DNA of 39,868 nucleotides from Sulfurospirillum diekertiae. GTDB lineage: Bacteria > Campylobacterota > Campylobacteria > Campylobacterales > Sulfurospirillaceae. A program made the translations under genes and the position numbers. A model generated the notes under the pieces. It saw nothing but the letters and a program-made list of their open reading frames with translations, did no database searches and was not told the DNA's origin. The stretch lies in the NCBI RefSeq assembly GCF_011769985.2, contig NZ_CP059996.1, positions 1 through 39,868 of the forward strand, written 5' to 3'. Shown piece by piece: positions 4,696-37,211 of this stretch (the stretch's first letter is position 1; the number at the start of each line of letters is the position of its first letter).

Positions 4696-4803
4696 AGTGT
4701 TGTAAAATCCGATTATAAGCGTTTTAATCCCAATAATGTACGCACGCAAGATAAAGTAAGGCAAGTTACTTCTGAATGCTTACATGTAGTGGTGAAAGAT
4801 TAG
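4696..4803 (+). pseudogene. 3' end of the split DNA adenine methyltransferase
   Basis: These bases hold the second AGTGT target copy (4696-4700) and the last 34 codons of the methylase gene, beginning VKSDYKRFN, a typical D12-class C-terminal motif, and ending LHVVVKD then TAG. In the joined gene the reading is YSVVKSDYKRFNPNN, in frame and biologically sensible. The stop overlaps by a few bases the stop of the convergent gene at 4800-5534. It has no start of its own and is presumably not translated. Confidence 0.85.
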
Positions 4804-5534
4804 TCAAAGTATTTTACTTTCAAAACTTTTTCAATTTCTGTGGCTAATAGTAAAATATTGCTAATGCTCACTTCTTTTGGAACATTAGTCACGATATGGT
4901 CTTTGATATATTCAAAGCTTTTAATTTCAATTCCAAAACGCTTACATACCAAGTAAGCGACTGATTCAGCCATGATTTCATTAATATTTTTAATATGTTC
5001 TAGTTTCGAAGGATGAGAGGCTTTTACAACAACATGACCTAAACGGATATGTGCGATCTCATGAACCAACGTAACAAACTTCCTTTTTTCATCAAGGCGT
5101 ACATTTAATTGGATATTACCATAGCCATCTTGATCAGGACTTGCCATGCCATCTATCGACATTAAAATATTTGGGCGAATTTTAATACTTTTGTCTCTAT
5201 AGTACTTTATGAGCTTATCTGTAAAGTCATTACAAAACTCTCGTTGATTTTTAAAGAGCATTTCATTTCCAAAGAGTGTTCCTGCCCCTTGTGTATCACT
5301 GATATCAAACACAAAATCAATGGCATCAAATGGTTTTTGAATGGCGTAGGCTCTAGCATCCTGTTTAATGCCAAGGTTTAACTTCTTCCACTGTTTGGCT
5401 GTAGCAATAATTGATAGATTGGGGTTTTGTACAAAAGCGGTAAAACAGTTTAACATTGAGAGATGAAAATTTCTAGCAATAAATTCAAGCATTATAAGGT
5501 ACATGTGCGTCTCTTTTATCCATGGGAGACGCAC
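4800..5534 (-). CDS. ArdC-like antirestriction / ImmA-IrrE-type zinc metallopeptidase
   Basis: The N-terminal part (FIARNFHLSMLNCFTAF through KQWKKLNLGIKQDARAYAI) matches the ArdC N-terminal ssDNA-binding pattern. The C-terminal half has the zinc motif HEIAH followed by a downstream glutamate region, as in ArdC and ImmA/IrrE peptidases. ArdC-type proteins protect incoming plasmid DNA from restriction. The protein is shorter at the N-terminus than usual ArdC forms (244 aa). The GTG at 5534 lies within an inverted repeat, and ATG 5504 (MYLIMLEF) is an alternative start. It is convergent with, and overlaps, the methylase 3' end. The role is inferred from the family. Confidence 0.7.
   Translation of the reverse strand: MRLPWIKETHMYLIMLEFIARNFHLSMLNCFTAFVQNPNLSIIATAKQWKKLNLGIKQDARAYAIQKPFDAIDFVFDISDTQGAGTLFGNEMLFKNQREFCNDFTDKLIKYYRDKSIKIRPNILMSIDGMASPDQDGYGNIQLNVRLDEKRKFVTLVHEIAHIRLGHVVVKASHPSKLEHIKNINEIMAESVAYLVCKRFGIEIKSFEYIKDHIVTNVPKEVSISNILLLATEIEKVLKVKYFD
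5505..5534. repeat. Inverted repeat GTGCGTCTC/GAGACGCAC at the start of the ArdC-like gene
   Basis: Two perfect 9-bp arms (5505-5513 and 5526-5534) are separated by 12 bp. The repeat spans the two candidate start codons of the minus-strand gene, so it may be an operator or an mRNA hairpin that hides the start. This is seen directly; its function is unknown. Confidence 0.55.
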
Positions 5535-5592
5535 GCTTAGGTTGTCAATTTCTTTTATGGTGTATGAATTAATTGTTTTTCCTTAAGAAAAA

Positions 5593-5808
5593 TTAGAATA
5601 CCTTTGTTACTTTAAACTCTTTTTCAATCCCATCAATTTTTAGAAAACTTCCATTTGTAGAATTTATTATGGTTACATTTGGACTGTACGCATAATGGTA
5701 TTCATAAAAATATTCAGCCTGTTTATATTTTTCTCCATTTGTTAATTCGATAATCGTATCGCCTTTGAAACCTTCAAAAGCACCTTGTATCTGTGATGTT
5801 ATAGCCAT
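5593..5808 (-). CDS. Conserved small protein of unknown function (71 aa)
   Basis: The start chosen is ATG 5808 (MAITSQIQGAFEGFKGD), because AGGAGG lies 5 bases upstream; a longer reading frame to 5904 runs into the IS5 left end and is not credible. The sequence contains the pattern YEYHYAYSPNVTI and a beta-rich layout (GDTIIELTNGEKYKQ, FLKIDGI) that I recall from widespread small uncharacterised proteins, which often begin with a similar G.FEG..GDTI segment. No catalytic motif is seen. A TATAAT-like -10 (about 5839-5844, read on the minus strand) lies upstream, and the IS5 insertion at 5852 probably removed or replaced its -35 region. Confidence 0.7.
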   Translation of the reverse strand: MAITSQIQGAFEGFKGDTIIELTNGEKYKQAEYFYEYHYAYSPNVTIINSTNGSFLKIDGIEKEFKVTKVF

Positions 5809-5851
5809 GTTATCCTCCATTGATTTTGATGATAACCGATTATAACTATTT

Positions 5852-7374
5852 AGTCGCCCCTGAAAAACCACAAAAATCCCTAGATTCAGGGCTTTCATAG
5901 TCATTTTAGAGTATAATTTCGACCATAAACAAGGGGGTTACCCCTCTATTTCTGGTCGAAAAGGATCTCTTTGCTGCCGAAAATGACACCTACAAATCAA
6001 CCCAATCTTTTCTATGGTTCCTTAATGGATATGTTAGATAGGAATGATCCACTGATTGCTTTGGCTGATGTGATTGATTGGAATAAAATAGAAGAGGCAT
6101 TGCGTGGATATTACTGTATGGACAAAGGAAGACCGGCTAAACCTTTGCGTTTGATGGCAGGATTATTGATGCTCAAATATTTGGAGAATCTCTCTGATGA
6201 GAATGTGGTCGTGCAATGGAAACGAAATCCTTATTATCAATACTTCTGTGGGCTCAGTGATTACCAATGTGGCTTACCTTGTGATGCAACAGAATTGGTA
6301 AAGTTTCGTAATCGTATTGGTCAAGGAGGTATAGATGCCATCTTTGGTGCCAGTGTGGCATTACACCCTGAAGCATCCAATGAATCGCATGTCATTATTG
6401 ACTCCACTGCCCAAGAGAAGCATATCACTTATCCCACCGATGGTAAACTTGCCATTAAGATGATTCACGCATTGCATAAGATTGCAAAGAGGGAAGGTAT
6501 TGCACTACGACGTACCTACCTCAAAGAGATAAAAGAGCATCGTATCACCTTACGCTTCTTTAGACATCCCAAGAAGAAGCACAAAGCACGCAGTGCTATG
6601 AAACGTTTACGCACCATTGCAGGAATAGTGATGCGTGATATGCAAAGAAGTTTTACACTAGAACAAATAGCATTCTACGCTGAACAATTTTCACTTTACA
6701 CAAAGGTACTTTTACAAAAAAGAAGCGATAAGGATAAAATCTACTCCTTGCATGAACCTCACATTTATGCCATGGCAAAAGGGAAAGATCATAAAAGCTA
6801 TGAATTTGGTGTTAAGGCTTCTGTTGTCACCACCTACACGCATGGGATTGTGGTAGGAGCAGTCGCCCATGAGAGCAATGAACACGATTCTAAAACATTG
6901 AAGGCTGTCCTGACCCATGCGTCCACACACAGACACACACCTATCCAAAGGGCAACGTGTGATAGAGGATACCGTGGCATTAAAGAGGTCAACACCACAC
7001 ATATTTGCATCCCCGGTATTCATTTAAAACGTGACACGAAAGAAGAAAAAGAACACAAGAGAAAACAGTTTAGACGTAGAGCTGCCATAGAGCCTACCAT
7101 TGGACATCTCAAACATGACCACAGAATGGCACGAAACTATCTTAAAGGCTTTATCGGAGATCAGATCAATCTACTCATGGCTGCATGTGCGTGGAATCTG
7201 AAAAAATGGATGAATCTCTTCATCCATGCTCTTTTTTTAGCAAAAGATTATAGGCAAATGATGGTGAGTATAGGGTATATGAAACTCTATTGGTCTGTGT
7301 GGATTTGGCTTGGGTTGACTCAAAGAGAAAGCAGGCTATAATTTGTGATGTTTTTGAGTTTTTCAGGCTCGACT
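5852..7374 (+). mobile_element. Complete IS5-family insertion sequence, 1,523 bp
   Basis: The terminal inverted repeats read AGTCG.(C/G)CCTGAAAAAC at both ends (5852 onward, and the reverse complement ending at 7374). A 4-bp target duplication ATTT lies at 5848-5851 and 7375-7378. It contains one full transposase gene. A G/C hairpin (GGGGGTTACCCC, about 5933-5944) near the left end may block read-in transcription. A truncated second copy lies at 25488-26509 in the opposite orientation. Confidence 0.88.
5971..7341 (+). CDS. IS5-family DDE transposase
   Basis: This 456-aa transposase has an N-terminal DUF772-type segment (KIEEALRGYYCMDKGRPAKP) and a DDE core: IIDSTAQEKHI, TCDRGYRGIKE and AAIEPTIGHLKHD. 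The RR..IEPTIGHLK block is the conserved C-terminal E region of IS5 transposases. The TTG start has AAGGA at good spacing; ATG 5983 is the alternative. No frameshift is seen, so it is likely active. From residue 129 (VALHPEAS) onward it is identical to the C-terminal part of the chimeric ORF at 25521-27014. Confidence 0.92.
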   Translation: MLPKMTPTNQPNLFYGSLMDMLDRNDPLIALADVIDWNKIEEALRGYYCMDKGRPAKPLRLMAGLLMLKYLENLSDENVVVQWKRNPYYQYFCGLSDYQCGLPCDATELVKFRNRIGQGGIDAIFGASVALHPEASNESHVIIDSTAQEKHITYPTDGKLAIKMIHALHKIAKREGIALRRTYLKEIKEHRITLRFFRHPKKKHKARSAMKRLRTIAGIVMRDMQRSFTLEQIAFYAEQFSLYTKVLLQKRSDKDKIYSLHEPHIYAMAKGKDHKSYEFGVKASVVTTYTHGIVVGAVAHESNEHDSKTLKAVLTHASTHRHTPIQRATCDRGYRGIKEVNTTHICIPGIHLKRDTKEEKEHKRKQFRRRAAIEPTIGHLKHDHRMARNYLKGFIGDQINLLMAACAWNLKKWMNLFIHALFLAKDYRQMMVSIGYMKLYWSVWIWLGLTQRESRL

Positions 7375-11035: not shown

Positions 11036-11932
11036 CTATGCTTCTAGTACAATATCATGAATGATCTGTTTAAAAAAGACTTCACTCCATAACTCTAACT
11101 CAGCCATCTCTTTAATAAAAGGCCTTACATCGTTTTTAGCTTTTGCAATGTCGAGGTGTTCAATACGCGTATTTAACAGTGCTATCAAACTCTCTTTGGT
11201 TAAATGTTCAGGTAGGGTTTGCTTTTGGGCTTCAAACCATTTGCAACTTTGCTCCAAGCGTGCGTTTAAGTGTTCTAAATCCAAAGGTGTCTTATGGGCT
11301 ATATACCACACAAGATCATACCAATCCCTGCCTTTTGGTCGCGTACCCCATGCACGGCACAACAGTGCATGCATTTTCCCAGCAAAGAGTGAGGGTAAGG
11401 TCATTGCCGTAATCGAATAGGGTCGAGGAATAAGTCTCAAAACACTGTGTGTTTGAAAGTGTAAAGGAGGCTCTGTGTCTACTTCAAATTTGATTTTGAT
11501 GATTTGGTCTTTATGAATGCTTTGAAGAATGTTTTTAGGGGCATTGATGGAAAGAAGATGCTCTACGGTATTGCCTTTTAGAAAAGCAGACTGTACAGCA
11601 GATTCCGCTGTTTTTTCTTTCATCTCAATCTTTACATCGAACCCAAAGGAGAGTAATGTTTCACTAAGAGATTTTTCATAGATACGCAAATCAAATGATG
11701 GATTTTCTTGAAGAAGTGAGAAATCAAGGTCTTCTGAAAAGCGTGGAAGTCCATGTAAAATACGAAGTGCCGTTCCTCCATAAAAAGCGGCCTCTTTAAA
11801 AAACCCTCCCTCATACAGTCCTAAAAGCACAATCTCTTGAAGAATTTCACGCAAAGCATCCACACTCTCTTCTTTAGAGTTAAGTGCATAATGCTCGAGC
11901 ATCTTGGCAATGGCAGGATGAGTATTAGCCAT
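11036..11932 (-). CDS. abiEii: AbiEii-family nucleotidyltransferase toxin
   Basis: This 298-aa protein starts at ATG 11932 (MANTHPAIAKMLEHY). The nucleotidyltransferase signature FYGGTALRILHGLPRFSEDL is followed by DF, as in AbiEii/AbiGii toxins; a lysine-containing KIKFEVD and KGRDWYDLVW follow. AbiEii toxins block growth on phage infection, reported through nucleotide transfer to RNA. It overlaps the AbiEi antitoxin gene by 8 bases in the standard antitoxin-toxin order. It appears complete and probably active. Confidence 0.9.
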   Translation of the reverse strand: MANTHPAIAKMLEHYALNSKEESVDALREILQEIVLLGLYEGGFFKEAAFYGGTALRILHGLPRFSEDLDFSLLQENPSFDLRIYEKSLSETLLSFGFDVKIEMKEKTAESAVQSAFLKGNTVEHLLSINAPKNILQSIHKDQIIKIKFEVDTEPPLHFQTHSVLRLIPRPYSITAMTLPSLFAGKMHALLCRAWGTRPKGRDWYDLVWYIAHKTPLDLEHLNARLEQSCKWFEAQKQTLPEHLTKESLIALLNTRIEHLDIAKAKNDVRPFIKEMAELELWSEVFFKQIIHDIVLEA

Positions 11933-12569
11933 GATTGACTCCTTTTTGCAGTAAGGAAGCGAGTGTGCGTAAGTTTTTTGAACGATAGGCGTGTGCAATT
12001 AAGAGGATAAGTTCAACATTTAACATCTCTAATCGCTCTAGGCGAAGGTCATACACAAGGTATTCTTTCATCTGCGCTTGCGTCATACTTCCTACCCCTC
12101 TATCGTAACGTATTTTATCGCACAATGCTTTCTCAGGCGTTGCTATAAGTTTTCCGCCGTTATTCTCATCATACATCCAATCAACACCAAGTGCATAGGC
12201 TTCTTTGGGGATGTGTTTATAACTAAAGCGCCCTAAGGGCGTTTCAAAGAGTTTTGGATGGTTAAGCGTTGCGGCTGTCACTTCACTCACACGTTCAGGA
12301 ATCATGCCATAGTGTGAGAGTGCAAAATCAAACGAAACATACGAAGGGGTATAGAGCATATTGGAGATGCTGATAGTATCAATGGGGGTACTTTGGTATC
12401 TTTTCCCAAGATGGTAAATCCCTCGTTTTAAGCGTATCAAATCACCATTCTTTACCATCGTGGCTATTTTAATATTCACTTGTGAAACGCTAGGTTCTAA
12501 AAAGGCACTGAGCATTTCGTGTGTAAACAGTGGTGTTTTAAAGTGATTTTTGATATCGATGGTTTCCAT
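11925..12569 (-). CDS. abiEi: AbiEi-family antitoxin, type IV abortive infection
   Basis: This protein of about 214 aa begins METIDIKNHF. It has a winged-helix N-terminus (KIATMVKNGDLIRLKRGIYH) and a C-terminal domain with TPEKALCDKI, as in AbiEi antitoxins that repress the operon and neutralise AbiEii. ATG 12569 is preferred: TATAAT at 12576-12581 (minus strand) would start transcription almost at this codon, giving a leaderless mRNA. A longer form from 12587 would overlap that -10 box and lacks a ribosome binding site. Confidence 0.87.
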   Translation of the reverse strand: METIDIKNHFKTPLFTHEMLSAFLEPSVSQVNIKIATMVKNGDLIRLKRGIYHLGKRYQSTPIDTISISNMLYTPSYVSFDFALSHYGMIPERVSEVTAATLNHPKLFETPLGRFSYKHIPKEAYALGVDWMYDENNGGKLIATPEKALCDKIRYDRGVGSMTQAQMKEYLVYDLRLERLEMLNVELILLIAHAYRSKNLRTLASLLQKGVNHG

Positions 12570-12721
12570 GTGGTTATTATACATCAATATTTTATTTTAT
12601 TACATAGATAATATATTAAAAACATTTTAACTATTAGAAAAATATAGTCTATGCCTAGGTGCTCTTATTTTTTTATCTTTCACAACCTATTCCAAAATAG
12701 AACACGTTGAAATTTCTAATA

Positions 12722-13435
12722 TTATTTAATTTTTTCAAGAATATTTATAGTTCCATTTTCAACAGCTAATTCATAAGTAGAAAATAAACAATTTGAATAT
12801 TTAGAAAAATCTTTTTGGGGATACCAGCTTCTTAGACATTTTAAGAAATGAAATAAAAAATTCAATGAAAGAAAAATATTTAAATCCCAGCCTGTATGAG
12901 CATGTTCTGAATATGTTGGAAGATTTGATACACCAATTTTTTCTCCATCTTCAAAAGCAGATAATAATTCACCTATTCTATGACTTGAAGAATGAGCAAT
13001 TTCTGATAAAAGACCATATATTTTTCCACTTTCTCCCTGTAAAATATTTTTTACATTTGGAGTTTTTCCAAGAAGTGTTTCAAGATTTTTTGAATCTATT
13101 TCATTTAGTCTTGCAATAGCTTCTAATTGTTTTCTCATTAGTACTGATGCTTCTACTAAATCTCCATTTAACAAAAAATCATTTATTATGAAATGTGTTC
13201 TGACATAAGATGATATTAGTGTCAGTTTAAAAGATATATTTTCATCAACTATATCAATTTTATTTTCTGTTTCCTTTATTAATGAGGCAATCAATCCATC
13301 AATACTTATTCTTATAGTATTTTCTATTTCTGTTTCTTTTCCTCTAAATTTTTTTCTTGCAATTTCTCTTGCTTCATCCGACATTGCTTGAAAACTACAT
13401 GTATTTTTAATTAATGATTCTATAATTTTTTCCAT
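12722..13435 (-). CDS. Uncharacterised 237-aa protein, possible HEPN-like helical fold
   Basis: I do not recognise the gene with certainty. It is largely helical with no signal peptide or membrane segment. The features ASVLMRKQLEAIARL and GLLSEIAHSSSHRI resemble the E/R..L and S..AH patterns of HEPN or DUF5677-like proteins, which are common near defence genes. AT content is higher than in its neighbours. It stands alone between the abiE operon and the McrBC block. Its function is unknown. Confidence 0.6.
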   Translation of the reverse strand: MEKIIESLIKNTCSFQAMSDEAREIARKKFRGKETEIENTIRISIDGLIASLIKETENKIDIVDENISFKLTLISSYVRTHFIINDFLLNGDLVEASVLMRKQLEAIARLNEIDSKNLETLLGKTPNVKNILQGESGKIYGLLSEIAHSSSHRIGELLSAFEDGEKIGVSNLPTYSEHAHTGWDLNIFLSLNFLFHFLKCLRSWYPQKDFSKYSNCLFSTYELAVENGTINILEKIK

Positions 13436-13947: not shown

Positions 13948-14086
13948 GATGTATGGTAATATTTTATTTTGAGTTTAAAAATAACCATCTTACTTTCTAA
14001 ATCCAGCCAGATGTTTTTTAAAAGTTTATCCCATCTACGCTATACTTTTAATTCAAAAGAGGTATCAGCTTTTAGCAAGAGGTCCT

Positions 14087-15229
14087 ATGCAATTTTTGTA
14101 TGAAAACGAATATATTCCGTCCTCACTCACGAAAGAAATCGAATCAAATAAAGAGCTATACCCATTTTTTGAAATGACATTTCAAGGTATCAAGCCTAAA
14201 AACAACTGCGGTTTTCTCAAAATTCAGAATGAAAATTATTTTATTGTCCCAAAAATTGCAGACAAAGAACAAACAAATTTACATATTTTTATCTACATGC
14301 TGATGTATGCGTTTGATGTTAAACTTACCAATAGGGATTTTTCAAATCTACAAAGTATAAAAAGCCATTTTCTAGAAATTTTTATTCGCCACTTTAGCGA
14401 TGCACTGCTTAATGAGTTTAAAAAAGGTATTTTCAAAAAGTATGTTTGTCTATCTAAAAACTTGAAAGTATTACGTGGCAAGTATGTCATCGAAAAGAAT
14501 TTCACCAATTTTTACCATCAAAGTATCTATTGTGAATACGATGAGTTCACGATGGACAATGAACTTAATCGCTTTTTTTTCTATGCCATTAAGGTGTTTA
14601 AAAAATTTAGTTCTTATCCAAATCTGCATAAATGTGAAATGATTTTAGACGAAGTTTCATTTTTACATTTTTCCAATCTCAATCAGATAAACATTGAATT
14701 TAATCGAATGAATAGCCGGTATTTAAAGAGTTTTGAAACTGCTATCATGATATTAAAAAAGCTCATTCCCTTGCCTAATGATGAAAACAATAAAAGTTTT
14801 GCTTTTTTATTTGATATGAGTGAAGTTTTTGAGAAATTTATCGGCAGATTGTACCAATCCATCGATAGTACAACAAAACTACAGAGTCAAAGAAATTTTG
14901 GAAATTTACAACTAAAGCCTGATATTTTAACCAGTAGCATGATTATAGATACTAAGTATAAAATAGTCCAAACAAAGGACAATTTGTCTGTGGCAGACAA
15001 ATATCAAATGTTCACCTATGGTACTAATTTTAATATTGATAACACCATGCTTTTATACCCTGAGCACCTTCACAAAACACATGAAAATTTAATTCTTGGT
15101 GTTGGAGAAAAAGCTGTAAAATTGAAACTGAGAAGTATTGATTTAAACCAAAACAATGAAGACTATGAGCAATATATTGAAACAATTAAATACCAAGTAA
15201 GGATAGTGTATGGCACAGATTGCAAATGA
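14087..15229 (+). CDS. mcrC: McrC-like nuclease subunit of a type IV McrBC restriction system
   Basis: This 380-aa protein ends in a PD-(D/E)XK nuclease: LKPDILTSSMIIDTKYK carries Asp near residue 277 and D.K near 287-289, the McrC catalytic set. The N-terminal two thirds are McrC-like (LRGKYVIEKN, DEFTMDNELNRFF). McrC cuts DNA when the McrB ring translocates to it from modified cytosines. Start ATG 14087 has AAGAGG upstream. It overlaps mcrB by 20 bases. The gene order (C before B) is the reverse of E. coli. Confidence 0.87.
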   Translation: MQFLYENEYIPSSLTKEIESNKELYPFFEMTFQGIKPKNNCGFLKIQNENYFIVPKIADKEQTNLHIFIYMLMYAFDVKLTNRDFSNLQSIKSHFLEIFIRHFSDALLNEFKKGIFKKYVCLSKNLKVLRGKYVIEKNFTNFYHQSIYCEYDEFTMDNELNRFFFYAIKVFKKFSSYPNLHKCEMILDEVSFLHFSNLNQINIEFNRMNSRYLKSFETAIMILKKLIPLPNDENNKSFAFLFDMSEVFEKFIGRLYQSIDSTTKLQSQRNFGNLQLKPDILTSSMIIDTKYKIVQTKDNLSVADKYQMFTYGTNFNIDNTMLLYPEHLHKTHENLILGVGEKAVKLKLRSIDLNQNNEDYEQYIETIKYQVRIVYGTDCK

Positions 15230-16874
15230 ACAAATAATTGACGTATATGAAAAATTTAAACAATATTCTTTTAAAAATGAAAAAGAATTTCCATCTCTCA
15301 AGCAAAAAAAGATCACTTCTGATATTGTTGCATTAATTAAAAATGAAAAAAAATTTATCTGGAATGATACAAGCCTAAGTGATTATATCAACAATTTAGT
15401 CTATATGGTAAGAGGTGAACAATTTGCTAGAACCATTAATGCGTTTGCTGAAACATATTTGATTGATAGTATTTGTAAAGACTTTGGCCCACAGATTTGC
15501 GAAAATGCTAAAAAATCTTTAGCTCTTCATAAAGAGTACTACCGGTCTCTAAACAATGACAATACAAAGAACTCTAAAAAATTATATAAAGAATTTTTTC
15601 CTCAACTCTTACAAGCAATTCAACAAAGAAGAGATGCGTTTGATAGTACTTTCAACATCGATATAACTTACAATACCCAAGAACAACGCCCAAGACATTA
15701 TCTATCTTTTCGAGCAGGAAAATCAAATATCAGTTATGGCTGTGTTTACACAAAAGGTTATGCAAAAGGCTTTGTTGTAGAACTCTATTTAGATGGGGAC
15801 AACTATAAAGAACGCTTTGAAAAACTTTTAACCTATAAAAATGAAATAGATAACGCCTATGAAGAAACCTTGACGTGGCAAGAAGACACAGGTAGTGCCA
15901 GGAGAGTTTTTGTAAGTTTTGAAGGGAATATCGAAAATCGTGAAGAATGGGAAAGTTATATCAATTGGCAAGTAGAAAACCTAATTAAGTTTAGAAGAAT
16001 TTTTCAATCCTATATTGATACTATTGATGAAGGTATAACGCTCTTTAATACGCAAAAAACACCAAAGGGGAATGAAACAATGTTTAAAATAAAAAATATA
16101 ATTCTCTTTGGATCGCCTGGTGTTGGGAAAACTCACAATACTAATCAATTGATTAGTTTTATTGAAAAAAGGCTACCAGAAAATAAAATTTTTGATGCCA
16201 TTACGTTGAATAACTCTTATCAGCGAGAAAAATTTGATGCTGGATTAGTATCAAGAATTAACTTTATTACTTTCCATCAAAATTTTGGCTACGAAGATTT
16301 TATTGAAGGGTTTCGCCCCAATGAAAAGGGCACTATTGAACTTCAAGACGGCATCTTTAAAAGTATCTGTCAAGAAGCAAGAGAGAATAGAGATGAAAAT
16401 TACTATTTAGTCATTGATGAAATTAATCGAGGGAATATCTCTAAAATTTTTGGTGAATTAATCACGCTTATTGAAGAAGATAAGCGCGATGTCATTGAAG
16501 TGGTGCTCCCCTACTCTAAAAAATTATTTACCATACCATCCAATCTTTTTATTATCGGCACTATGAATAGTACCGATAAATCAATTGCACTGATTGATAT
16601 TGCGCTACGAAGACGATTTACTTTTGTTAAGATGAAGCCAAATGACGAACTCATCAATCACCCAAAATCAAAAGAACTTCTCAAGGCACTTAACCAAAAA
16701 ATTACCGAAAAACTGGGAGAAGATTATCAAATTGGGCATAGCTATTTTATGAAAATTGAAAACGATGCAGATTTTTCTTTTGTCATCAAATATAAAATCA
16801 AACCATTGCTTGAAGAGTATTTTTATGGGGATACGGATGGGCTAAGCGATGTACTTTCATTATTGGAACAATAA
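15210..16874 (+). CDS. mcrB: McrB-like AAA+ GTPase with N-terminal DUF4268-like domain
   Basis: This 554-aa protein has Walker A GSPGVGKTH near residue 301, Walker B LVIDEINRG near 399, and GTMNSTDKSIALIDIALRRR near 450, matching the McrB GTPase core (MN..D motif). Residues about 150-285 (FVVELYLDGDNYKERFEKLL, ARRVFVSFEG) resemble DUF4268 rather than the usual McrB DNA-recognition domain. The modification sensed may therefore differ from 5-methylcytosine. It is translationally coupled to mcrC, and the next gene starts 3 bases after its stop. Confidence 0.87.
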   Translation: MAQIANEQIIDVYEKFKQYSFKNEKEFPSLKQKKITSDIVALIKNEKKFIWNDTSLSDYINNLVYMVRGEQFARTINAFAETYLIDSICKDFGPQICENAKKSLALHKEYYRSLNNDNTKNSKKLYKEFFPQLLQAIQQRRDAFDSTFNIDITYNTQEQRPRHYLSFRAGKSNISYGCVYTKGYAKGFVVELYLDGDNYKERFEKLLTYKNEIDNAYEETLTWQEDTGSARRVFVSFEGNIENREEWESYINWQVENLIKFRRIFQSYIDTIDEGITLFNTQKTPKGNETMFKIKNIILFGSPGVGKTHNTNQLISFIEKRLPENKIFDAITLNNSYQREKFDAGLVSRINFITFHQNFGYEDFIEGFRPNEKGTIELQDGIFKSICQEARENRDENYYLVIDEINRGNISKIFGELITLIEEDKRDVIEVVLPYSKKLFTIPSNLFIIGTMNSTDKSIALIDIALRRRFTFVKMKPNDELINHPKSKELLKALNQKITEKLGEDYQIGHSYFMKIENDADFSFVIKYKIKPLLEEYFYGDTDGLSDVLSLLEQ

Positions 16875-16876
16875 GA

Positions 16877-17965
16877 ATGCTAGGTGCAATTTTTGGTGAT
16901 ATTTGTGGCTCTGTTTATGAATTTCATCCCGTAGAAAGTTATCAATTTCCACTACTAACAGATAAATCTCAATTTACAGATGATACGGTGTTAACCCTTG
17001 CCATTGCAGATGCTTTGATGAATAAGAAAGACATAGCCAAAACCCTCAAAGCATATGCAAGAGAACATGTATTTAAAGGCTATGGACTGCGCTTTAATGA
17101 TTGGGTGTGGGACGAAAAGAGTGAGCCTTATTGGAGCTTTGGTAATGGTAGTGCCATGAGAGTTTCATCTGTTGGTTTTTTATATGACTCCATAGAGGAT
17201 GTTTTAGAATATGCTCAAAAAAGTGCAGAAGTTACCCACAATCATACAGAAGGAATCAAAGGGGCACAAGCAACAGCGCTTGCCATTTTTTTAGCCCGAC
17301 AACACGCCTCAAAAGATGAAATCAAACACGAAATAGAAACACGATTTGGATACAACCTTAGTAAAACCCTCGCTGAAATAGAAAAGAACTATCGCTTTAA
17401 TGAAACATGCCAAGGAAGCGTTCCTGAGGCTATTATTGCTTTTTTAGAATCAGAAGATTATGAAAGTGCTATTCGTAATGCCATTTGGCTCAAAGGGGAT
17501 GCCGATACACAAGCGTGTATTGCTGGTGGTATCGCAGAAGCATTTTATGGAGATATTCCCGAATCTTTTAAAGAAAAAATTTATACATCACTGCCACAAG
17601 AAATGCTTGAAATCATCGAACAATTTTATGCCTATATGGATTTTAAAAACAGCATCATAGAAGAAGATTTAGCATGTATTGAAAAAAATTTTCACACACT
17701 GATTTATAAAGTCATCAATGATGATTTTCCAAGCATCAATACATCTAACATTACACTACCAAAGCTCACTATCCCTTTTGATACTAAATCAAAACAATGG
17801 ATTGGCATTGAAGGGATGTATGGGGGTTTCAGTTATACTTTTGATGATAGTGATTGTGTTCTCAAATTTTTTGTTGAAAATTGGTGCAGAATTTTTGATG
17901 GGTTGGATAAAAAGCATATTGTAACAGCCGAAGGATTTTTGTGCGTTGGGGCTAATATTATGTAG
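16877..17965 (+). CDS. ADP-ribosylglycohydrolase (DraG/ARH family) in the McrBC operon
   Basis: This 362-aa protein opens MLGAIFGDICGSVYEF and carries the dinuclear metal motifs FTDDTVLT, GNGSAMRVSSVG, VTHNHTEGIKGA and GDADTQACIAGGIAEA. ARH enzymes remove ADP-ribose from proteins or nucleic acids. All core motifs are present, so activity is likely. About 110 residues after the catalytic domain form an extension I cannot assign. The start lies 3 bases past the mcrB stop, so it is part of one operon. It may reverse an ADP-ribosylation step or act on an NAD-derived signal; this is inference. Confidence 0.88.
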   Translation: MLGAIFGDICGSVYEFHPVESYQFPLLTDKSQFTDDTVLTLAIADALMNKKDIAKTLKAYAREHVFKGYGLRFNDWVWDEKSEPYWSFGNGSAMRVSSVGFLYDSIEDVLEYAQKSAEVTHNHTEGIKGAQATALAIFLARQHASKDEIKHEIETRFGYNLSKTLAEIEKNYRFNETCQGSVPEAIIAFLESEDYESAIRNAIWLKGDADTQACIAGGIAEAFYGDIPESFKEKIYTSLPQEMLEIIEQFYAYMDFKNSIIEEDLACIEKNFHTLIYKVINDDFPSINTSNITLPKLTIPFDTKSKQWIGIEGMYGGFSYTFDDSDCVLKFFVENWCRIFDGLDKKHIVTAEGFLCVGANIM

Positions 17966-17967
17966 TT

Positions 17968-18972
17968 TTAGGAATGAACAATCAGTTTATTTTCGATAAT
18001 CTCTATAATCGAATCTATCGTTTCAGTAGCTTTACCATAAATGACATCATCAAACAAAGTGTCATTGACTACTGAACTTTGTTCTAATGTGCTAAAGAGG
18101 GAAAAACTAACTCTCGTTGCCATTTTGTTAATGTTAAGGACTTGCCCACTTGTTCCAATAACCACCAAAATATCTGTTTTGTTCAATATGTTTTCTAAAA
18201 GGGCATAGTTGGGAGCTGGCTCATTAAAAAAGACAATATCAGGTCTTAAGGCTTGATGACACAAAGGACATACATCATTTTCTTGCAATGCGTACCCAAT
18301 GTTGATAACATAATCACACTCGTGGTTTGAACAACGTAAGTTTGGTAAATAGCCATGCAAATGAAGAATGGCATTACAACCTGCTTTTTCAAGTAGATTG
18401 TCTACATTTTGAGTGATTACAAAGACATTATTAGGATATTTATTTTGGAATTTTGCTATTTCTAGGTGCGTTTTATTTGGAACTTTGTTGCTTAGCTGTA
18501 AGCGTCTTTGATTGTAAAACTCAATGACTTCTTCTTTGTTATGTTGGTATGCATCTGCAGTGCAAACACGCTCTATTGGAATATTGTTCCATAACCCATT
18601 TTTGCCTCTAAACGTCTCAATTCCAGATTCTTGACTAATACCAGCTCCAGTTAAAAATGTGACATTGTATTGGACTTTTTTCTCAAAAGAGATGGTTTGG
18701 TTAGTAAGAGTGACATTAAAATATCTGAAAATATCAGTTCCAAAAATGCCATCAATCTCTTCATCAATTAAAAACTCATCTCTATTGAGGGGTTGAAAGT
18801 GAAGATAAAAGCCTTCTTTTCCAAAGTAGAGTTTAGCCATGCCACTTTTTTCTAAATAGGCAGAATTGAGGTAGGAATGAGAGAGGGTTTGATCAAAAAT
18901 AAATTTTACAGGCTCATCATCCATCTCAAGGAAAAATGCACCATCTTCGTCTAAAGAACATTTTTTAATCAT
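17968..18972 (-). CDS. Sirtuin (Sir2) with an N-terminal retropepsin-like domain
   Basis: Residues about 105-330 are a sirtuin: GAGISQESGIETFRG (NAD binding), TQNVDNL with N189 and D191, catalytic His in LHLHGYL (H206), a zinc site C214/C219 and C235/C238, RPDIVFFNE and VVIGTSGQV. Residues 1-100 look like a pepsin/retropepsin-type domain: VKFIFDQTLSHSYLNSAYLE resembles the FDTG.S.S active-site strand, and IDGIFGTDIFRYFNVTL the second conserved strand, but the DTG is replaced by DQT, so proteolysis is doubtful. It converges tail to tail with the ARH gene, 2 bases apart. The sirtuin call is firm; the N-terminal call is inference. Confidence 0.88.
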   Translation of the reverse strand: MIKKCSLDEDGAFFLEMDDEPVKFIFDQTLSHSYLNSAYLEKSGMAKLYFGKEGFYLHFQPLNRDEFLIDEEIDGIFGTDIFRYFNVTLTNQTISFEKKVQYNVTFLTGAGISQESGIETFRGKNGLWNNIPIERVCTADAYQHNKEEVIEFYNQRRLQLSNKVPNKTHLEIAKFQNKYPNNVFVITQNVDNLLEKAGCNAILHLHGYLPNLRCSNHECDYVINIGYALQENDVCPLCHQALRPDIVFFNEPAPNYALLENILNKTDILVVIGTSGQVLNINKMATRVSFSLFSTLEQSSVVNDTLFDDVIYGKATETIDSIIEIIENKLIVHS

Positions 18973-19190: not shown

Positions 19191-20483
19191 TTACCCTACC
19201 CTCTCCTTTGCATACCCTATCATATCCACCCCATACTTATCCCTAATTTTCATAAGCCCTTGGGTCAGTTTGGCATGTTTGGTATCCTTTTCAATCTCCA
19301 AAATCGAAAAGCTTTTACGTTGATGAATGCCTGTGCAATTACTCGCCCCCAATCCAATGTAATGAATCTTATAATGAGGATGAGTGTCGAGTTCATCAAA
19401 GAGGCTTTGGGCAAGGTCAATAAAGAAAGCTTCATTGAATAACCGATCATGGGTGATAGATTTAGCAGACTTGGTGCCGTATTGGTAACGCAGCTTCATA
19501 TAAAAGGTGGTGGGATTGAGTCCTAGTTTACTGATGGTGTAGCTTAGATACCGTGAGAGTATCAGCACTCTGCGTTTTAACTCTTCCCTCTCTCCAATGG
19601 CTGCAAAGTTACGACTGATACCAATGCCTTTTCGCTCTCTGGAAGGATGAACGGGTTCGTTGTCTTCTCCTAAGATTTTTAGATAGAGCTCTTTGCCTGT
19701 TTTTCCATAGGATTCAAAGAGTCGTTGCATGCGTTTAGCATCTCCCAGTGTTTCTGCCCCATAGCTTTTTAACCGCCGCTCTATGGCTCTTCCAATCCCT
19801 GGGAACTCTTCTATCTTCATAGGGTCTGTAAAAGCATTAACTTCATGAGCTTCAATGACTTTAGTCCCATAAGGCTTAATGGTATCGGTGGCAAGCTTTG
19901 CAATCCATTTGCTTTTACTAGCAGCAATGGAGATAGGCAAATCAAAGCGTTCTAAAATCTCTTGTTGCAAGGCTTGAATAAAGGCTAGCGTGTTCTCCTC
20001 TTCTATCCAGCCACCAATATCTCCCCAAAATTCATCAATGCTGTATTGCTCTAAGAGGGGTATTTTGGTTTCAAGGTAGGCTTTGAGTTTAAAGGAGAGC
20101 ATTTGGTAAAAGAGATGGTCACTCGGAAGCACAATAAGACCAGGACACATGACAAGGGCATCTCTTAAAGAGGTGCCTGTTTTTATTTTATACGTTTTAG
20201 CTTCATAGCTTTTGGCAATCACGATACCGTGGATAACGCCCTCTTTGTCTTTAAACTCTTTTTTCCATTCATTGACGATATTTTTAGAGTTAAAGTGATT
20301 GCTAAATTCCAATACAGAGTTAAACGCCCCACTTTCTTCTATGAGTACGGCATCTTTTTTCTCTTTAGAGAAGATGCGCTTATCGCTTCCTTTGGCAACA
20401 ACGACAGGACGACCTTTTAAAAAAGGATAACGTGTGCGTTCAGCCGATACAAAATAACAATCCAAATCCATATGCAGTTTCAC
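19191..20483 (-). CDS. Y-family DNA polymerase (UmuC/DinB-like), complete copy 2
   Basis: This 430-aa translesion polymerase has palm residues D6 and D8 (MDLDCYF), catalytic YSIDEFWGD (D150, E151), HhH-type DNA contacts around EEFPGIGRAIERRL, and a little-finger domain. The family bypasses DNA lesions with low fidelity. The start is GTG 20483. It is divergent from the S24 repressor gene, with a 101-bp shared promoter region. It is nearly identical to copy 1 (39662-39868 plus 1-1086), which lies in the opposite orientation. Confidence 0.93.
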   Translation of the reverse strand: MKLHMDLDCYFVSAERTRYPFLKGRPVVVAKGSDKRIFSKEKKDAVLIEESGAFNSVLEFSNHFNSKNIVNEWKKEFKDKEGVIHGIVIAKSYEAKTYKIKTGTSLRDALVMCPGLIVLPSDHLFYQMLSFKLKAYLETKIPLLEQYSIDEFWGDIGGWIEEENTLAFIQALQQEILERFDLPISIAASKSKWIAKLATDTIKPYGTKVIEAHEVNAFTDPMKIEEFPGIGRAIERRLKSYGAETLGDAKRMQRLFESYGKTGKELYLKILGEDNEPVHPSRERKGIGISRNFAAIGEREELKRRVLILSRYLSYTISKLGLNPTTFYMKLRYQYGTKSAKSITHDRLFNEAFFIDLAQSLFDELDTHPHYKIHYIGLGASNCTGIHQRKSFSILEIEKDTKHAKLTQGLMKIRDKYGVDMIGYAKERVG

Positions 20484-20584
20484 GGTTTCTCTTTACATGT
20501 AAGCTTTTATTTCACAGTGTAATATTTAATCACGTAGGGCTAAAAATAAGTGATAATATGTCAATTAAACGATAAAGGACGATC
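20484..20584. promoter_or_regulatory. Divergent promoter region of polymerase copy 2 and S24 repressor copy 1
   Basis: The 101 bases are almost identical to 39561-39661 in inverted orientation. A TGATAAT-like -10 precedes the repressor gene. The palindrome TTACATGTAA (20493-20502) lies just upstream of the polymerase GTG. Because both repressors share the same DNA-binding half, the operators in the two regions are probably the same. Confidence 0.65.
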
Positions 20585-21253
20585 ATGGAGCTTGGGCATG
20601 TGATTGACAATCTCAAAGATGTGTTAAGCCTGGAACTTGGCAATAAACGCGTGTTTGATAAAGATGTCGCTTATGCCCTTGGACTCTCACGGGAGAGCTT
20701 TTCGCATCTAAAGAGACGCAATTCCGTTCCGTATGAAGCCATTGTCTTTTTTTGTGCCAAGAGAGCTATTTCGATTAATTGGATTTTATTTGATCAATTG
20801 CCAAAGTCCTTGGAAGAAAAGACAGAACGGTTCGCGCGCATCAAATACTTTAAAGAGCTTCACACCAGTGCGGGCGGTGGGGCGTGGAATGATGAAGAGG
20901 GTTTTGAGTACATGTACATCCATTACGAGGGATTAAATAGTTTTTCGCACGCACAAGAAGCGTCTCTTCACGCGATTAATGTTATAGGCGATTCTATGGA
21001 ACCCACACTTAAAGATAAAGAGATTATTTTATGCGACACTACATGTAAAGAGTTTGAGGATGGAGATATTTTTATGATTCACACACTTGAAGGCTTGTTT
21101 GTCAAAAGACTCTTTCAAGACGCAAAGGGCACCATCTCTTTACGAAGTGACAATCCAAATTACACGCCTACATGTATAAATAAATTAGGGTTAGACGATA
21201 TAACGCTTATTGGCAAAGTGATAGCAAAGGTAGAGAAAGAGCTATGCAGATAA
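20585..21253 (+). CDS. LexA/CI-like repressor with S24 self-cleavage domain, copy 1
   Basis: This 222-aa protein has an N-terminal CI-type HTH (about residues 22-60: FDKDVAYALGLSRESFSHLK). A likely cleavage site A96-G97 (TSAGGGAW) precedes an S24 peptidase with S137 (GDSMEP) and K174 (FVKRL) as the Ser-Lys dyad. Such proteins repress an adjacent error-prone polymerase until RecA-dependent self-cleavage. It is divergent from polymerase copy 2. The N-terminal half is nearly identical to the copy at 38904-39560, while the catalytic half is clearly diverged. Its 3' end overlaps a small membrane protein gene. Confidence 0.9.
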   Translation: MELGHVIDNLKDVLSLELGNKRVFDKDVAYALGLSRESFSHLKRRNSVPYEAIVFFCAKRAISINWILFDQLPKSLEEKTERFARIKYFKELHTSAGGGAWNDEEGFEYMYIHYEGLNSFSHAQEASLHAINVIGDSMEPTLKDKEIILCDTTCKEFEDGDIFMIHTLEGLFVKRLFQDAKGTISLRSDNPNYTPTCINKLGLDDITLIGKVIAKVEKELCR

Positions 21254-25219: not shown

Positions 25220-25489
25220 GTGACTTTAAAGATTATGCTTGGAGATATTATCAAAGCAGATGCCACATTTATTGTAAATGCCTCAAATACAGAATTAACG
25301 CTTGGTAGTGGCGTTTCTATGGCTTTTAGAAAAGAATGTGGTGGAATGAATTTTCAAAGAAAACTCACTGAAATCAAAGAAGCACATATTATTAAGCATG
25401 GTACAATTCAACAAGGAGATGTAATTATCTCAGATTCTGGTGATGCAAACAACTTTACATATGCCTTACATGTAGCCGTTATGAATTAG
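25220..25489 (+). pseudogene. Macrodomain (ADP-ribose-binding) protein, truncated by IS5
   Basis: This is the first 89 codons of a macrodomain: LKIMLGDIIKADATFIVNAS (the G.I....D.IVN signature), LGSGVSMAFRKECG, GDVIISDSG and YALHVAVMN. Macrodomains bind or hydrolyse ADP-ribose. After AVMN the IS5 right end begins and supplies TAG. The rest of the domain is not found at the far side of the IS block. It was the last gene of the ycjX operon. It was probably functional before insertion. Confidence 0.85.
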
Positions 25490-26509
25490 TCGAGCCTGAA
25501 AAACTCAAAAACATCACAAATTATAGCCTGCTTTCTCTTTGAGTCAACCCAAGCCAAATCCACACAGACCAATAGAGTTTCATATACCCTATACTCACCA
25601 TCATTTGCCTATAATCTTTTGCTAAAAAAAGAGCATGGATGAAGAGATTCATCCATTTTTTCAGATTCCACGCACATGCAGCCATGAGTAGATTGATCTG
25701 ATCTCCGATAAAGCCTTTAAGATAGTTTCGTGCCATTCTGTGGTCATGTTTGAGATGTCCAATGGTAGGCTCTATGGCAGCTCTACGTCTAAACTGTTTT
25801 CTCTTGTGTTCTTTTTCTTCTTTCGTGTCACGTTTTAAATGAATACCGGGGATGCAAATATGTGTGGTGTTGACCTCTTTAATGCCACGGTATCCTCTAT
25901 CACACGTTGCCCTTTGGATAGGTGTGTGTCTGTGTGTGGACGCATGGGTCAGGACAGCCTTCAATGTTTTAGAATCGTGTTCATTGCTCTCATGGGCGAC
26001 TGCTCCTACCACAATCCCATGCGTGTAGGTGGTGACAACAGAAGCCTTAACACCAAATTCATAGCTTTTATGATCTTTCCCTTTTGCCATGGCATAAATG
26101 TGAGGTTCATGCAAGGAGTAGATTTTATCCTTATCGCTTCTTTTTTGTAAAAGTACCTTTGTGTAAAGTGAAAATTGTTCAGCGTAGAATGCTATTTGTT
26201 CTAGTGTAAAACTTCTTTGCATATCACGCATCACTATTCCTGCAATGGTGCGTAAACGTTTCATAGCACTGCGTGCTTTGTGCTTCTTCTTGGGATGTCT
26301 AAAGAAGCGTAAGGTGATACGATGCTCTTTTATCTCTTTGAGGTAGGTACGTCGTAGTGCAATACCTTCCCTCTTTGCAATCTTATGCAATGCGTGAATC
26401 ATCTTAATGGCAAGTTTACCATCGGTGGGATAAGTGATATGCTTCTCTTGGGCAGTGGAGTCAATAATGACATGCGATTCATTGGATGCTTCAGGGTGTA
26501 ATGCCACAC
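25488..26509 (-). mobile_element. Truncated IS5-family element (3' part)
   Basis: It is identical over its length to the transposase 3' part and right end of the complete IS5 at 5852-7374, in reverse orientation, with the terminal AGTCGAGCCTGAAAAAC at 25488. The left part is missing: IS5 sequence stops at 26509, where IS982 begins at the 11-mer CCCGCCGTAAC. This copy cannot transpose alone. Confidence 0.88.
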
Positions 26510-27014
26510 CCGCCGTAACATCGTGTATGGAGCCTTCTGAGATATGTACCATTACAGGCTCTTTATCGGTTGTGACTACCATATGGACTTTAAGCCCATA
26601 AAAGAATCTCCCTTTGGATGCATTATAACCTTTGAGTGATGGATCACTCCACAATCTGACTCTGCTTTGCCTTGTGATTTGGCACAATTCAACAGGAAAA
26701 GAATCAACAGAGTAAATCTTTGCACCGTTTAATCGCTGAAACAATGAGCCTAGAAATAAAAATAGTGTTGATAACACTTCATTTATTTTGGCTAAGCGAC
26801 GCAAAAATCTCGTGTAATCAATCCTTTTGACCAACTGCATCATCATAGAATACTGATGGGCTTTATAGTAGTTACCACTAAAATCATTCACTGCCATATA
26901 CCCGATAAGCAGCACTTCTGCATTACTAATCTCTGCTCTAACATCATCTTTTATCCCTGATACCTTCAAATACTCATCAATTAAACAATAAACTGTTATA
27001 ATATCTCGCTCCAT
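25521..27014 (-). pseudogene. Chimeric transposase ORF: IS982 N-terminus fused in frame to IS5 C-terminus
   Basis: This is one open frame of 497 codons from ATG 27014 (MERDIITVYCLIDEYLKV; GGAGG upstream). Residues to about 168 are an IS982 transposase N-terminal half (IYSVDSFPVELC, GLKVHMVVTTDKEP, GSIHDVTAG). From VALHPEASNESH on it is the IS5 DDE core and C-terminus. The join lies at GGCGGG/TGTGGC. The two families bind different ends, so a working transposase is unlikely, but a stable fusion protein could be made. An annotation pipeline could call this an intact gene. Confidence 0.85.
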
Positions 27015-27088
27015 AATCTCGCCTCCCACGGCTTTTTATGGAGTTTAAAGCAACTTTCAAACCATATTTACAACTAGCAGTTTGGGTT
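26509..27088 (-). mobile_element. IS982-family element, fragment holding the 5' half
   Basis: It begins at the outer end AACTAGCAGTTTGGGTT (27072-27088), the mirror of the terminus at 7904, and stops at the 11-mer shared with 8257-8267. It holds the start of the IS982 transposase. Joined to 7904-8256 it gives a continuous transposase reading ...HDVTAG-YQFMHYLPQ..., which shows the two were one element. Confidence 0.85.
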
Positions 27089-27563: not shown

Positions 27564-28466
27564 GTGGCTCTCATAGACATATTAAGCGATACACACTTTG
27601 ATAATTGGTTTGGGTATCCTCATCAAGGGAACAAAAATAAGCTATCTCCACCCAAAGATGCCATTGTTGGTTTTTGGCGTAAACTCAAACCCCAAGGCGA
27701 TTACCTTATTTTAGCGGGCGATATTGGTCATAGTATTGAACAAAATATCAATATTCTAAAAATACTCAAAGAGCTTTATTATAAAGAAATCATCCTCACA
27801 ATGGGAAATCATGATTATTATGTTGCAGATAGTGAATATAAATCACTCTTTGAAAACGGTATTGAAAAAGCAACAGAAGCAAAAATGAGGTATCAAGACG
27901 CTGGAATGATTGTGCTTGATGGCACAATAGAAGAGATTGAGGGAATTAAATTTGGCGGCGCTATGGGTTGGTATCATAGTGCCTATGTGCATAAAAATCA
28001 AAAACTTCTTAGGGAAATGCAAAGCGCTCATTATTTTCCTTCCTTAGAAGCATTTTTACAAGAGCTTTGGGGTGATTGCATCAACGATAAACGCTATACC
28101 AAACTAGATGTTTTTGATGAGTTATTTGAGGAAGAGTATGCCAAATTAAAAACAGTGCACCAAGTGTGTGATGTGATGGTTACCCATTATAGTCCTAGCA
28201 TTGCATTTGAGCACCAAAATATGTCCTACGCACGCAATCCTAGTACATCGTTTTTTTGTTTTGATGGAGAGGATTTAGTAAAAAATATGAGTGGAAAATT
28301 ATGGATTTATGGTCATACGCATGAGAGCAAAAGTACATCATGGCACAATAAAGAGATTATCACTAATGCATTAGGGTACAGTCATGAGTGGTCAAATCCT
28401 TGCCAGATAGTTACCAAAGAAATTATTATTAATGAAAATTTAAAAATAGATGAGCGCAAGGATTGA
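27564..28466 (+). CDS. Calcineurin-like metallophosphoesterase
   Basis: This 300-aa protein has the family motifs in order: DILSDTHFDNW (D.H), YLILAGDIGHS (GD), LTMGNHDYYV (GNHD), VMVTHYSP and IYGHTHES (GH.H). These bind a dinuclear metal centre that hydrolyses phosphoesters. The substrate cannot be told from sequence. Start GTG 27564 has AGGA 7 bases upstream. It is followed by an overlapping small gene. Confidence 0.88.
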   Translation: MALIDILSDTHFDNWFGYPHQGNKNKLSPPKDAIVGFWRKLKPQGDYLILAGDIGHSIEQNINILKILKELYYKEIILTMGNHDYYVADSEYKSLFENGIEKATEAKMRYQDAGMIVLDGTIEEIEGIKFGGAMGWYHSAYVHKNQKLLREMQSAHYFPSLEAFLQELWGDCINDKRYTKLDVFDELFEEEYAKLKTVHQVCDVMVTHYSPSIAFEHQNMSYARNPSTSFFCFDGEDLVKNMSGKLWIYGHTHESKSTSWHNKEIITNALGYSHEWSNPCQIVTKEIIINENLKIDERKD

Positions 28467-36263: not shown

Positions 36264-37211
36264 ATGGCTACAGCAAAAAGGAAGAGGGCAATGCAGCAAC
36301 ACGACTACGATAAAATCCTGTACCGTTTAATGAGCATTCTTGGTCGATTGAATGATGGAGAAATATTATACAAAGACGATCTTGCCAAAGAGTTCAATGT
36401 CTCCACTCAAACCATTCAAAGAGATTTTAATGAACGCTTAGTAACCCGCTTTCCCATCCATCGAATTGGTAATGGATGGAAGATGATGGAAGGCCATCAT
36501 TTGGAAAAGAGTAGGGCGGTTGAAGATATTTTAGTGTTGGATATTTTAAAAACATTCTCCAATGGTCTTGGACCTTCTTTTGCAAAACGCTCTGAGGGAT
36601 TACTCAGTAAACTCTGCGAATCTCACTCCTCTGTTTTTTATACCCGCTTATCCTTTGAAGATATGAGTGTGATCTCTGGATTATTTGATACTTTAGAAAA
36701 AGCGATTGAAGAATCACGATTGGTGCAGTTTTTTCATAAGAATCAGTATCGGTTGGTGAAACCGTATCGTGTGGTCAGTTTTGATGGGTATTGGTATTTG
36801 TTATGTGAAGAGGTGATTGATGGAAGAGTGAAAACCTTTCATATTGCTCGCATGAAAGATCTTTGTTTGCATGAAGATCATTTTGAAAAAGACACTACGT
36901 TAGCCAAACGATTGGATAAAGCCATTAATGCTTGGTTTAATCCTAATGTTGAACCTTATGAAGTCATTTTAGAAATCAGTGCGGAGATAAAACGCTATAT
37001 GCTTGACCACCCCATTGCTCCTACGCAAAAGATTGTGCAAGAACTTGCCGATGGGACCTTTTATCTTAGTCTAGAAATTACGAATGAAAAAGAGATTCTC
37101 TCTACCATCTTCAAATGGATTCCTCATATTCGCGTGATTGCTCCAAAAGCCTTACAAGAGAGTGTGCTTTTACAGACCAAAGCCTTTTTAGAAAAACAGG
37201 TGTTGCTCTAA
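36264..37211 (+). CDS. WYL-domain transcriptional regulator
   Basis: This 315-aa protein has an N-terminal DeoR-like helix-turn-helix (LYKDDLAKEFNVSTQTIQRD, about residues 40-60) and a WYL domain with YRLVKPYRVVSFDGYWYLLC (the WYLLC segment names the family), then a WCX-like C-terminus. WYL proteins bind ligands, often nucleic-acid related, and many control phage-defence or DNA-damage genes. Its targets here are unknown. It sits alone just beyond the origin. Confidence 0.87.
   Translation: MATAKRKRAMQQHDYDKILYRLMSILGRLNDGEILYKDDLAKEFNVSTQTIQRDFNERLVTRFPIHRIGNGWKMMEGHHLEKSRAVEDILVLDILKTFSNGLGPSFAKRSEGLLSKLCESHSSVFYTRLSFEDMSVISGLFDTLEKAIEESRLVQFFHKNQYRLVKPYRVVSFDGYWYLLCEEVIDGRVKTFHIARMKDLCLHEDHFEKDTTLAKRLDKAINAWFNPNVEPYEVILEISAEIKRYMLDHPIAPTQKIVQELADGTFYLSLEITNEKEILSTIFKWIPHIRVIAPKALQESVLLQTKAFLEKQVLL

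Follow-up and report, generated by a model that had tools for sequence, protein, structure and literature searches.

Many phages use ADP-ribosyltransferases against host proteins and, to our knowledge, little is known of how bacteria reverse this modification. Host ARG-centric systems were predicted to do so by Iyer et al. in 2022 (PMC9503650). They are built from WYL/Nudix regulators (present in just over 42% of systems), phosphatases (about 55%), chaperones and macro/NADAR domains, sometimes with restriction-type nucleases as optional partners (PMC9503650). On the restriction side, McrBC enzymes and CoCoNuTs have been the subject of a census whose main text contains neither DUF4268 nor ADP-ribosyl (PMC11090510). 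Here we analyse a 39,868-nt stretch of Sulfurospirillum diekertiae DNA (NZ_CP059996.1; the window), a complete circular plasmid that forms contig 2 of a two-contig genome, in which an mcrC–mcrB restriction gene pair is followed by a gene for an ADP-ribosylglycohydrolase (ARH) and met by a convergent sirtuin gene (Table 1). Our tentative reading, held with somewhat less than even confidence, is that an McrBC operon gained an ARH3-like hydrolase as its third gene, with restriction and ADP-ribose removal acting side by side.

Table 1. Genes of the mcrC–mcrB–ARH block and the convergent sirtuin gene
Gene	Predicted product	Coordinates	Strand	Family match
mcrC	Type IV restriction nuclease subunit, 380 aa, first gene	14087..15229	+	PF10117 E=8.4e-52
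mcrB	McrB-type AAA+ GTPase, 554 aa	15210..16874	+	PF14088 E=3.6e-20; PF07728 (AAA_5) E=8.1e-17
ARH	ADP-ribosylglycohydrolase, ARH3-like	16877..17965	+	PF03747 E=6.6e-34
Sir2	CobB/SIRT5-like deacylase, convergent	17968..18972	-	PF02146 E=1.7e-37

The three plus-strand genes lie head to tail, with a 20-bp overlap between mcrC and mcrB and 2 nt from the mcrB stop to the ARH start; another 2 nt separate the ARH stop from the convergent sirtuin stop. A Shine-Dalgarno-like AAGAGG precedes mcrC (14077-14082) and no terminator-like site was found between mcrC, mcrB and ARH; promoter and terminator scans in general performed no better than on shuffled sequence. A first-pass annotation of this DNA had described the same four genes with their overlap and gaps, which the coordinates and Pfam matches confirm, and had proposed that mcrC, mcrB and ARH form one transcript; the overlap, the short gap and the head-to-tail order support this proposal, and we regard co-transcription as plausible. 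The catalytic motifs of all four genes are unbroken. In McrC, the PD-(D/E)xK nuclease residues are visible as KPD...IDTK, and the protein matches the solved Thermococcus McrC chain 6ut5 (E=3.5e-18). McrB consists of an N-terminal module (residues 3-124), DUF4268 (125-269) and an AAA+ GTPase (about 290-550) with the Walker A motif GSPGVGKT, the Walker B motif LVIDEINRG and the NxxD signature MNSTD; it matches NCBIfam McrB (E=1.4e-44) and solved McrB chains (E about 1e-48 to 1e-44). GTPase motifs, PF10117 and nuclease residues are thus all present, and the pair is predicted to be a Type IV restriction enzyme of the McrBC kind. DUF4268 stands in place of the usual recognition domain, as the first-pass annotation had it. 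Some other McrB proteins of the Campylobacterales have the N-terminal module and gave no DUF4268 match, another McrB has DUF4268 without the N-terminal module, and a search of viral contigs for DUF4268 relatives confirmed none.

The ARH domain (residues 1-250) carries the metal/catalytic motifs GSVYE, FTDDT, VTHNH and GDADT, and alignments show invariant residues. The nearest solved structure is ARH3 (E=1.6e-15 with the single sequence, 2.5e-29 as a profile), and ARH3-like is the closest assignment by sequence; identity as DraG or ARH1 was rejected because ARH3 scores far better among solved structures. An additional C-terminal domain (about 258-354) resembles stand-alone proteins of cyanobacterial plasmids. 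On a Nostoc plasmid this domain forms a 104-aa protein by itself (L022:3998-4312), between a helicase gene and a DUF262 gene, with an EVE gene nearby.

GTDB genomes and IMG/VR contigs yielded 370 loci of the ARH subfamily, which form 195 clusters at 90% identity; each ARH scan contributed its best 80 matches, which makes the sample a biased one, and the hosts of the IMG/VR contigs are not known. Viral contigs scanned with the single ARH or sirtuin sequence gave no matches; profile scans did. McrBC and the ARH subfamily are linked on one strand at three places besides the window. The first is an island in a Campylobacteraceae metagenome-assembled genome, flanked by housekeeping genes, which reads WYL, ARH/macro fusion, HTH, MORN, McrB(DUF4268), RelBE and McrC on one strand; the ARHs of island and window are sisters on the tree (SH support 99), and the island's McrBC is of another type. 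The other two lie on IMG/VR contigs: hsdS-hsdR-mcrB(EVE)-mcrC-ARH, where mcrC and ARH are 23 nt apart (L197), and mcrB-mcrC-X-macro-ARH/SseB, with overlaps or gaps of <20 nt (L176). The link that the first-pass annotation had wanted sought in other genomes therefore recurs, with no Sir2 alongside. Within the order the ARH is scarce (4 of 399 genomes), and two of these four, those of the window and the Campylobacteraceae island, have it near a DUF4268-McrB.

In nine further clusters, all from IMG/VR (L262, L218, L237, L255, L215, L254/L242, L397, L398 and L413), the ARH is fused to HsdM. Eight of the fusions are 804-826 aa long and the ninth, which leaves the contig start, is 724 aa (L413); Pfam confirmed ARH, HsdM_N and N6_Mtase in two of them, and where the downstream genes were examined they were a second HsdM, HsdS and mostly HsdR. 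Altogether, a restriction gene was detected within 4 kb in 15 of the 195 clusters and always in the orientation of the ARH; for the nine fusions no other orientation is possible, and the remaining neighbours are co-directional in 6/6 cases. Three McrBC neighbours were observed where about 0.23 would be expected at the density found in the order (P about 0.002; at doubled density, P = 0.012), and a tree of 178 ARHs indicates at least three origins of the McrBC link and at least four or five of restriction links overall. The subfamily also has a BREX-like neighbourhood on a Methylomonas koyamae plasmid (L020:5001-7315), where the ARH is preceded by YbjN and 5'-deoxynucleotidase genes and immediately followed by DUF1819 and DUF1788 (BrxA/BrxB-like).

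The link to McrBC and the fusion to HsdM, in several unrelated bacteria or phages, suggest that cutting is paired with undoing phage tags. WYL, Nudix-type, macro, vWA and SseB genes recur beside the ARH subfamily and are companions reported for ARG-centric systems (PMC9503650). Because the WYL, macro, vWA and SseB neighbours fit that list, we interpret the block as combining restriction with repair, a putative variant of the predicted ARG-centric systems coupled to Type IV restriction. In this scheme DUF4268 and the N-terminal module of McrB would sense foreign, probably modified, DNA, McrB would power GTP-dependent translocation and McrC would cut, while the ARH would strip the ADP-ribose that phage ADP-ribosyltransferases put on host proteins or nucleic-acid ends, the restriction enzymes possibly among their targets, and would thereby keep cutting enabled. 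Gene order, intact catalytic motifs and the repeated linkage or fusion are observed; co-transcription, anti-phage activity, the ARH substrate and physical cooperation between McrBC and ARH are what we infer. We further advance as possible, if on the doubtful side, the broader idea that ARH-type hydrolases are a recurring restriction accessory, as a third gene of McrBC and as an N-terminal domain of HsdM, that erases or senses ADP-ribose. As an eraser, the ARH would remove phage-placed ADP-ribose from restriction proteins, DNA or RNA and keep restriction working; as a sensor, its recognition of ADP-ribose would license cutting or methylation. If this holds, de-ADP-ribosylating restriction systems would constitute a new class. 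We found no description of McrBC–ARH operons or ARH–HsdM fusions in the open-access literature, and the fusion is apparently undescribed. A restriction system with its own ADP-ribose eraser, found elsewhere fused to HsdM, would give the 2022 prediction a genetic unit on which it can be tested.

Several observations weigh against such a partnership. The exact order mcrC–mcrB–ARH is known from this plasmid alone so far, and for about 180 of the 195 ARH clusters the 4 kb around the ARH gave no detected restriction gene. Close relatives of the mcrC–mcrB pair are common in the order (about 60-68% identity in the McrB GTPase), and McrB homologues occur in 110/399 of its genomes, nearly all without this ARH. 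Moreover, defence genes cluster in any case, so proximity overstates function. The NAD-salvage genes described below also belong on this side.

The sirtuin domain (residues 103-327) resembles the structures of E. coli CobB and SIRT5 and carries the YxxR motif, HLHG and zinc cysteines; by motif, it is a predicted CobB/SIRT5-like deacylase and not of the ADP-ribosylating class. A chromosomal paralogue is present. PADLOC gave no strong match of this protein to anti-phage SIR2 systems, its defence SIR2 model matching weakly across 31 residues (E=0.0027). In none of the other 195 clusters did a sirtuin lie within 4 kb of the ARH. Given also the opposite, convergent strand and ordinary CobB-like motifs of the window sirtuin, we rejected it as a fourth member; it is probably a separate gene outside the mcrC–mcrB–ARH unit. 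From the composite unit of the first-pass annotation there thus remains a plausible three-gene part, whose ARH–restriction link recurs, without the sirtuin. The ADP-ribosylating sirtuin–macro type of toxin–antitoxin system does not fit either, given the deacylase motifs and a macro domain that is only a fragment 6 kb off (25220-25489, 89 aa), the only one among the open reading frames scanned in the window. This fragment shares 55% identity with the ARH-fused macro domain of the sister locus L058 and is truncated beside an IS5-family element (25521-27029). A retropepsin-like domain had also been proposed for the sirtuin and was confirmed by neither profile, sequence nor fold: the N-terminal 100 residues matched no Pfam family at E<=1 and no solved chain, had no convincing homologue in the 399 genomes of the order, and gave two poor AlphaFold models (mean pLDDT 34.6 and 50.4) with no Foldseek match. 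A degenerate retropepsin fold is possible, since D-Q-T-L-S-H-S can be seen by eye at the position of the retropepsin D-T/S-G, together with an IDGIFGTDIF motif.

We consider it rather unlikely that the ARH, perhaps with the sirtuin and the macro fragment, is cargo for NAD/ADP-ribose recycling that handles O-acyl-ADP-ribose or small adducts and came to follow mcrB by chance of plasmid assembly. The chief support for this explanation comes from the Nudix-like genes that adjoin the ARH in 11 clusters and from NAD-salvage neighbours of ARH relatives, namely nadM-nadV-ARH (L049) and pncA-pncB-nadE near ARH (L317, pMPPla107), the latter group suggesting a role in NAD recycling. It also agrees with the kinship to ARH3, in a superfamily whose members cleave O-acetyl-ADP-ribose from sirtuin deacylases (PMC9503650), with the deacylase motifs of the adjoining sirtuin, and with a third-position GC that is alike in mcrC, mcrB, ARH and sirtuin (0.26-0.31) and equal to that of the plasmid backbone genes parA and ycjX, unlike the umuC and AbiE genes (0.35-0.41). 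However, the sirtuin lies on the opposite strand and has no counterpart beside other ARHs, and repeated co-directional linkage or fusion to restriction enzymes would be unexpected for a purely metabolic enzyme. The same feature bears on defence-island hitchhiking, in which the ARH would be an independent anti-ADP-ribosylation gene that lands by restriction genes through clustering, with no cooperation. The plasmid does carry a number of modules of mobile or defence type (AbiE, YafQ and further toxin–antitoxin pairs), a RelBE pair and small genes separate ARH, mcrB and mcrC in the Campylobacteraceae island, and McrBC types vary among the linked loci; yet the spacing is 2 nt in the window and 23 nt in L197, 15/15 restriction neighbours are co-directional, and ARH and HsdM share one polypeptide, and we judge this explanation unlikely.

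A role of the ARH as nuclease regulator or antitoxin, de-ADP-ribosylating McrB or McrC to switch the nuclease on or off while the sirtuin or a host transferase acts as writer, has precedents in the writer–eraser pairs DraT–DraG and sirtuin–macro (PMC9503650), and a sirtuin does adjoin an operon that contains the ARH; but this sirtuin has the deacylase motif and does not recur, no ADP-ribosyltransferase family was found among the window open reading frames scanned, and we hold such a role very improbable. Scarcely credible is a reading along the lines of the first-pass suggestion, in which DUF4268 of McrB recognises ADP-ribosylated DNA bases and the ARH clears them from host DNA: DUF4268 does replace the usual recognition domain and is joined to other Type IV enzymes, the GmrSD enzymes (PMC4619093), but a DUF4268-McrB is also present in a genome that lacks this ARH subfamily (G001), the known erasers of base-linked ADP-ribose are macro and NADAR enzymes, and in one published panel an ARH3-like enzyme was active on phosphate-end and inactive on guanosine-base ADP-ribose in RNA (PMC11833690).

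Circularity of the window follows from a umuC-like gene that leaves its end and resumes at base 1. The plasmid is the same as pSDIE1 of S. diekertiae, with 99.5% identity overall (99.7% across the mcrC–mcrB–ARH–sirtuin block) and an additional ~1.65 kb at 4700-6353 as the sole exception; the deposited pSDIE1 sequence contains numerous broken reading frames. An AbiEi/AbiEii type IV toxin–antitoxin pair (11036-12587) adjoins the block, the annotation of the near-identical plasmid lists RelB/YafQ and HicAB pairs, and a 237-aa gene without family match (12722-13435) has an extremely low third-position GC of 0.08 and appears newly acquired. Two UmuDC-like pairs of an S24 peptidase and a Y-family polymerase (38904-39560 to 1-1086, straddling the plasmid start, and 19191-21253) have a DNA identity of about 91-94%. 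Typical companions of ARG systems are encoded at a distance from the ARH: a calcineurin-like phosphoesterase 9.6 kb away (27564-28466; PADLOC PDC-S10 match) and a WYL regulator (36264-37211).

The sirtuin shares its domain, YxxR, HLHG and zinc cysteines with E. coli CobB and SIRT5-type enzymes and differs in its 100-residue N-terminal extension and in being a plasmid copy beside a chromosomal paralogue. The ARH has the GDxxGSxYE, TDDT and GDxDT motifs of ARH3, whereas its additional C-terminal domain and its place in a bacterial plasmid operon set it apart. Like the GmrSD Type IV enzymes (PMC4619093), the window system joins DUF4268 to a predicted modification-dependent restriction enzyme, but its motor and nuclease are McrB and McrC instead of DUF262/DUF1524. 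The McrBC of E. coli K-12 and Thermococcus (PMC11090510) is alike in the AAA+ GTPase and its Walker A motif and NxxD signature, the PF10117 nuclease and the gene overlap; in the window, by contrast, mcrC leads, the N-terminal module and DUF4268 replace DUF3578/ADAM or EVE, and an ARH gene comes third. With the ARG-centric systems, finally, the window shares an ARG/ARH domain with an intact metal site, and relatives of its ARH have the WYL, macro, vWA and SseB companions; no ADP-ribosyltransferase family turned up among the open reading frames scanned, but a convergent deacylase-type sirtuin adjoins the ARH; no regulator, phosphatase or chaperone does so here, the WYL regulator being absent from the window operon and adjacent at the sister locus L058, and the partner is instead a complete McrBC pair, as elsewhere it is a fused HsdM.

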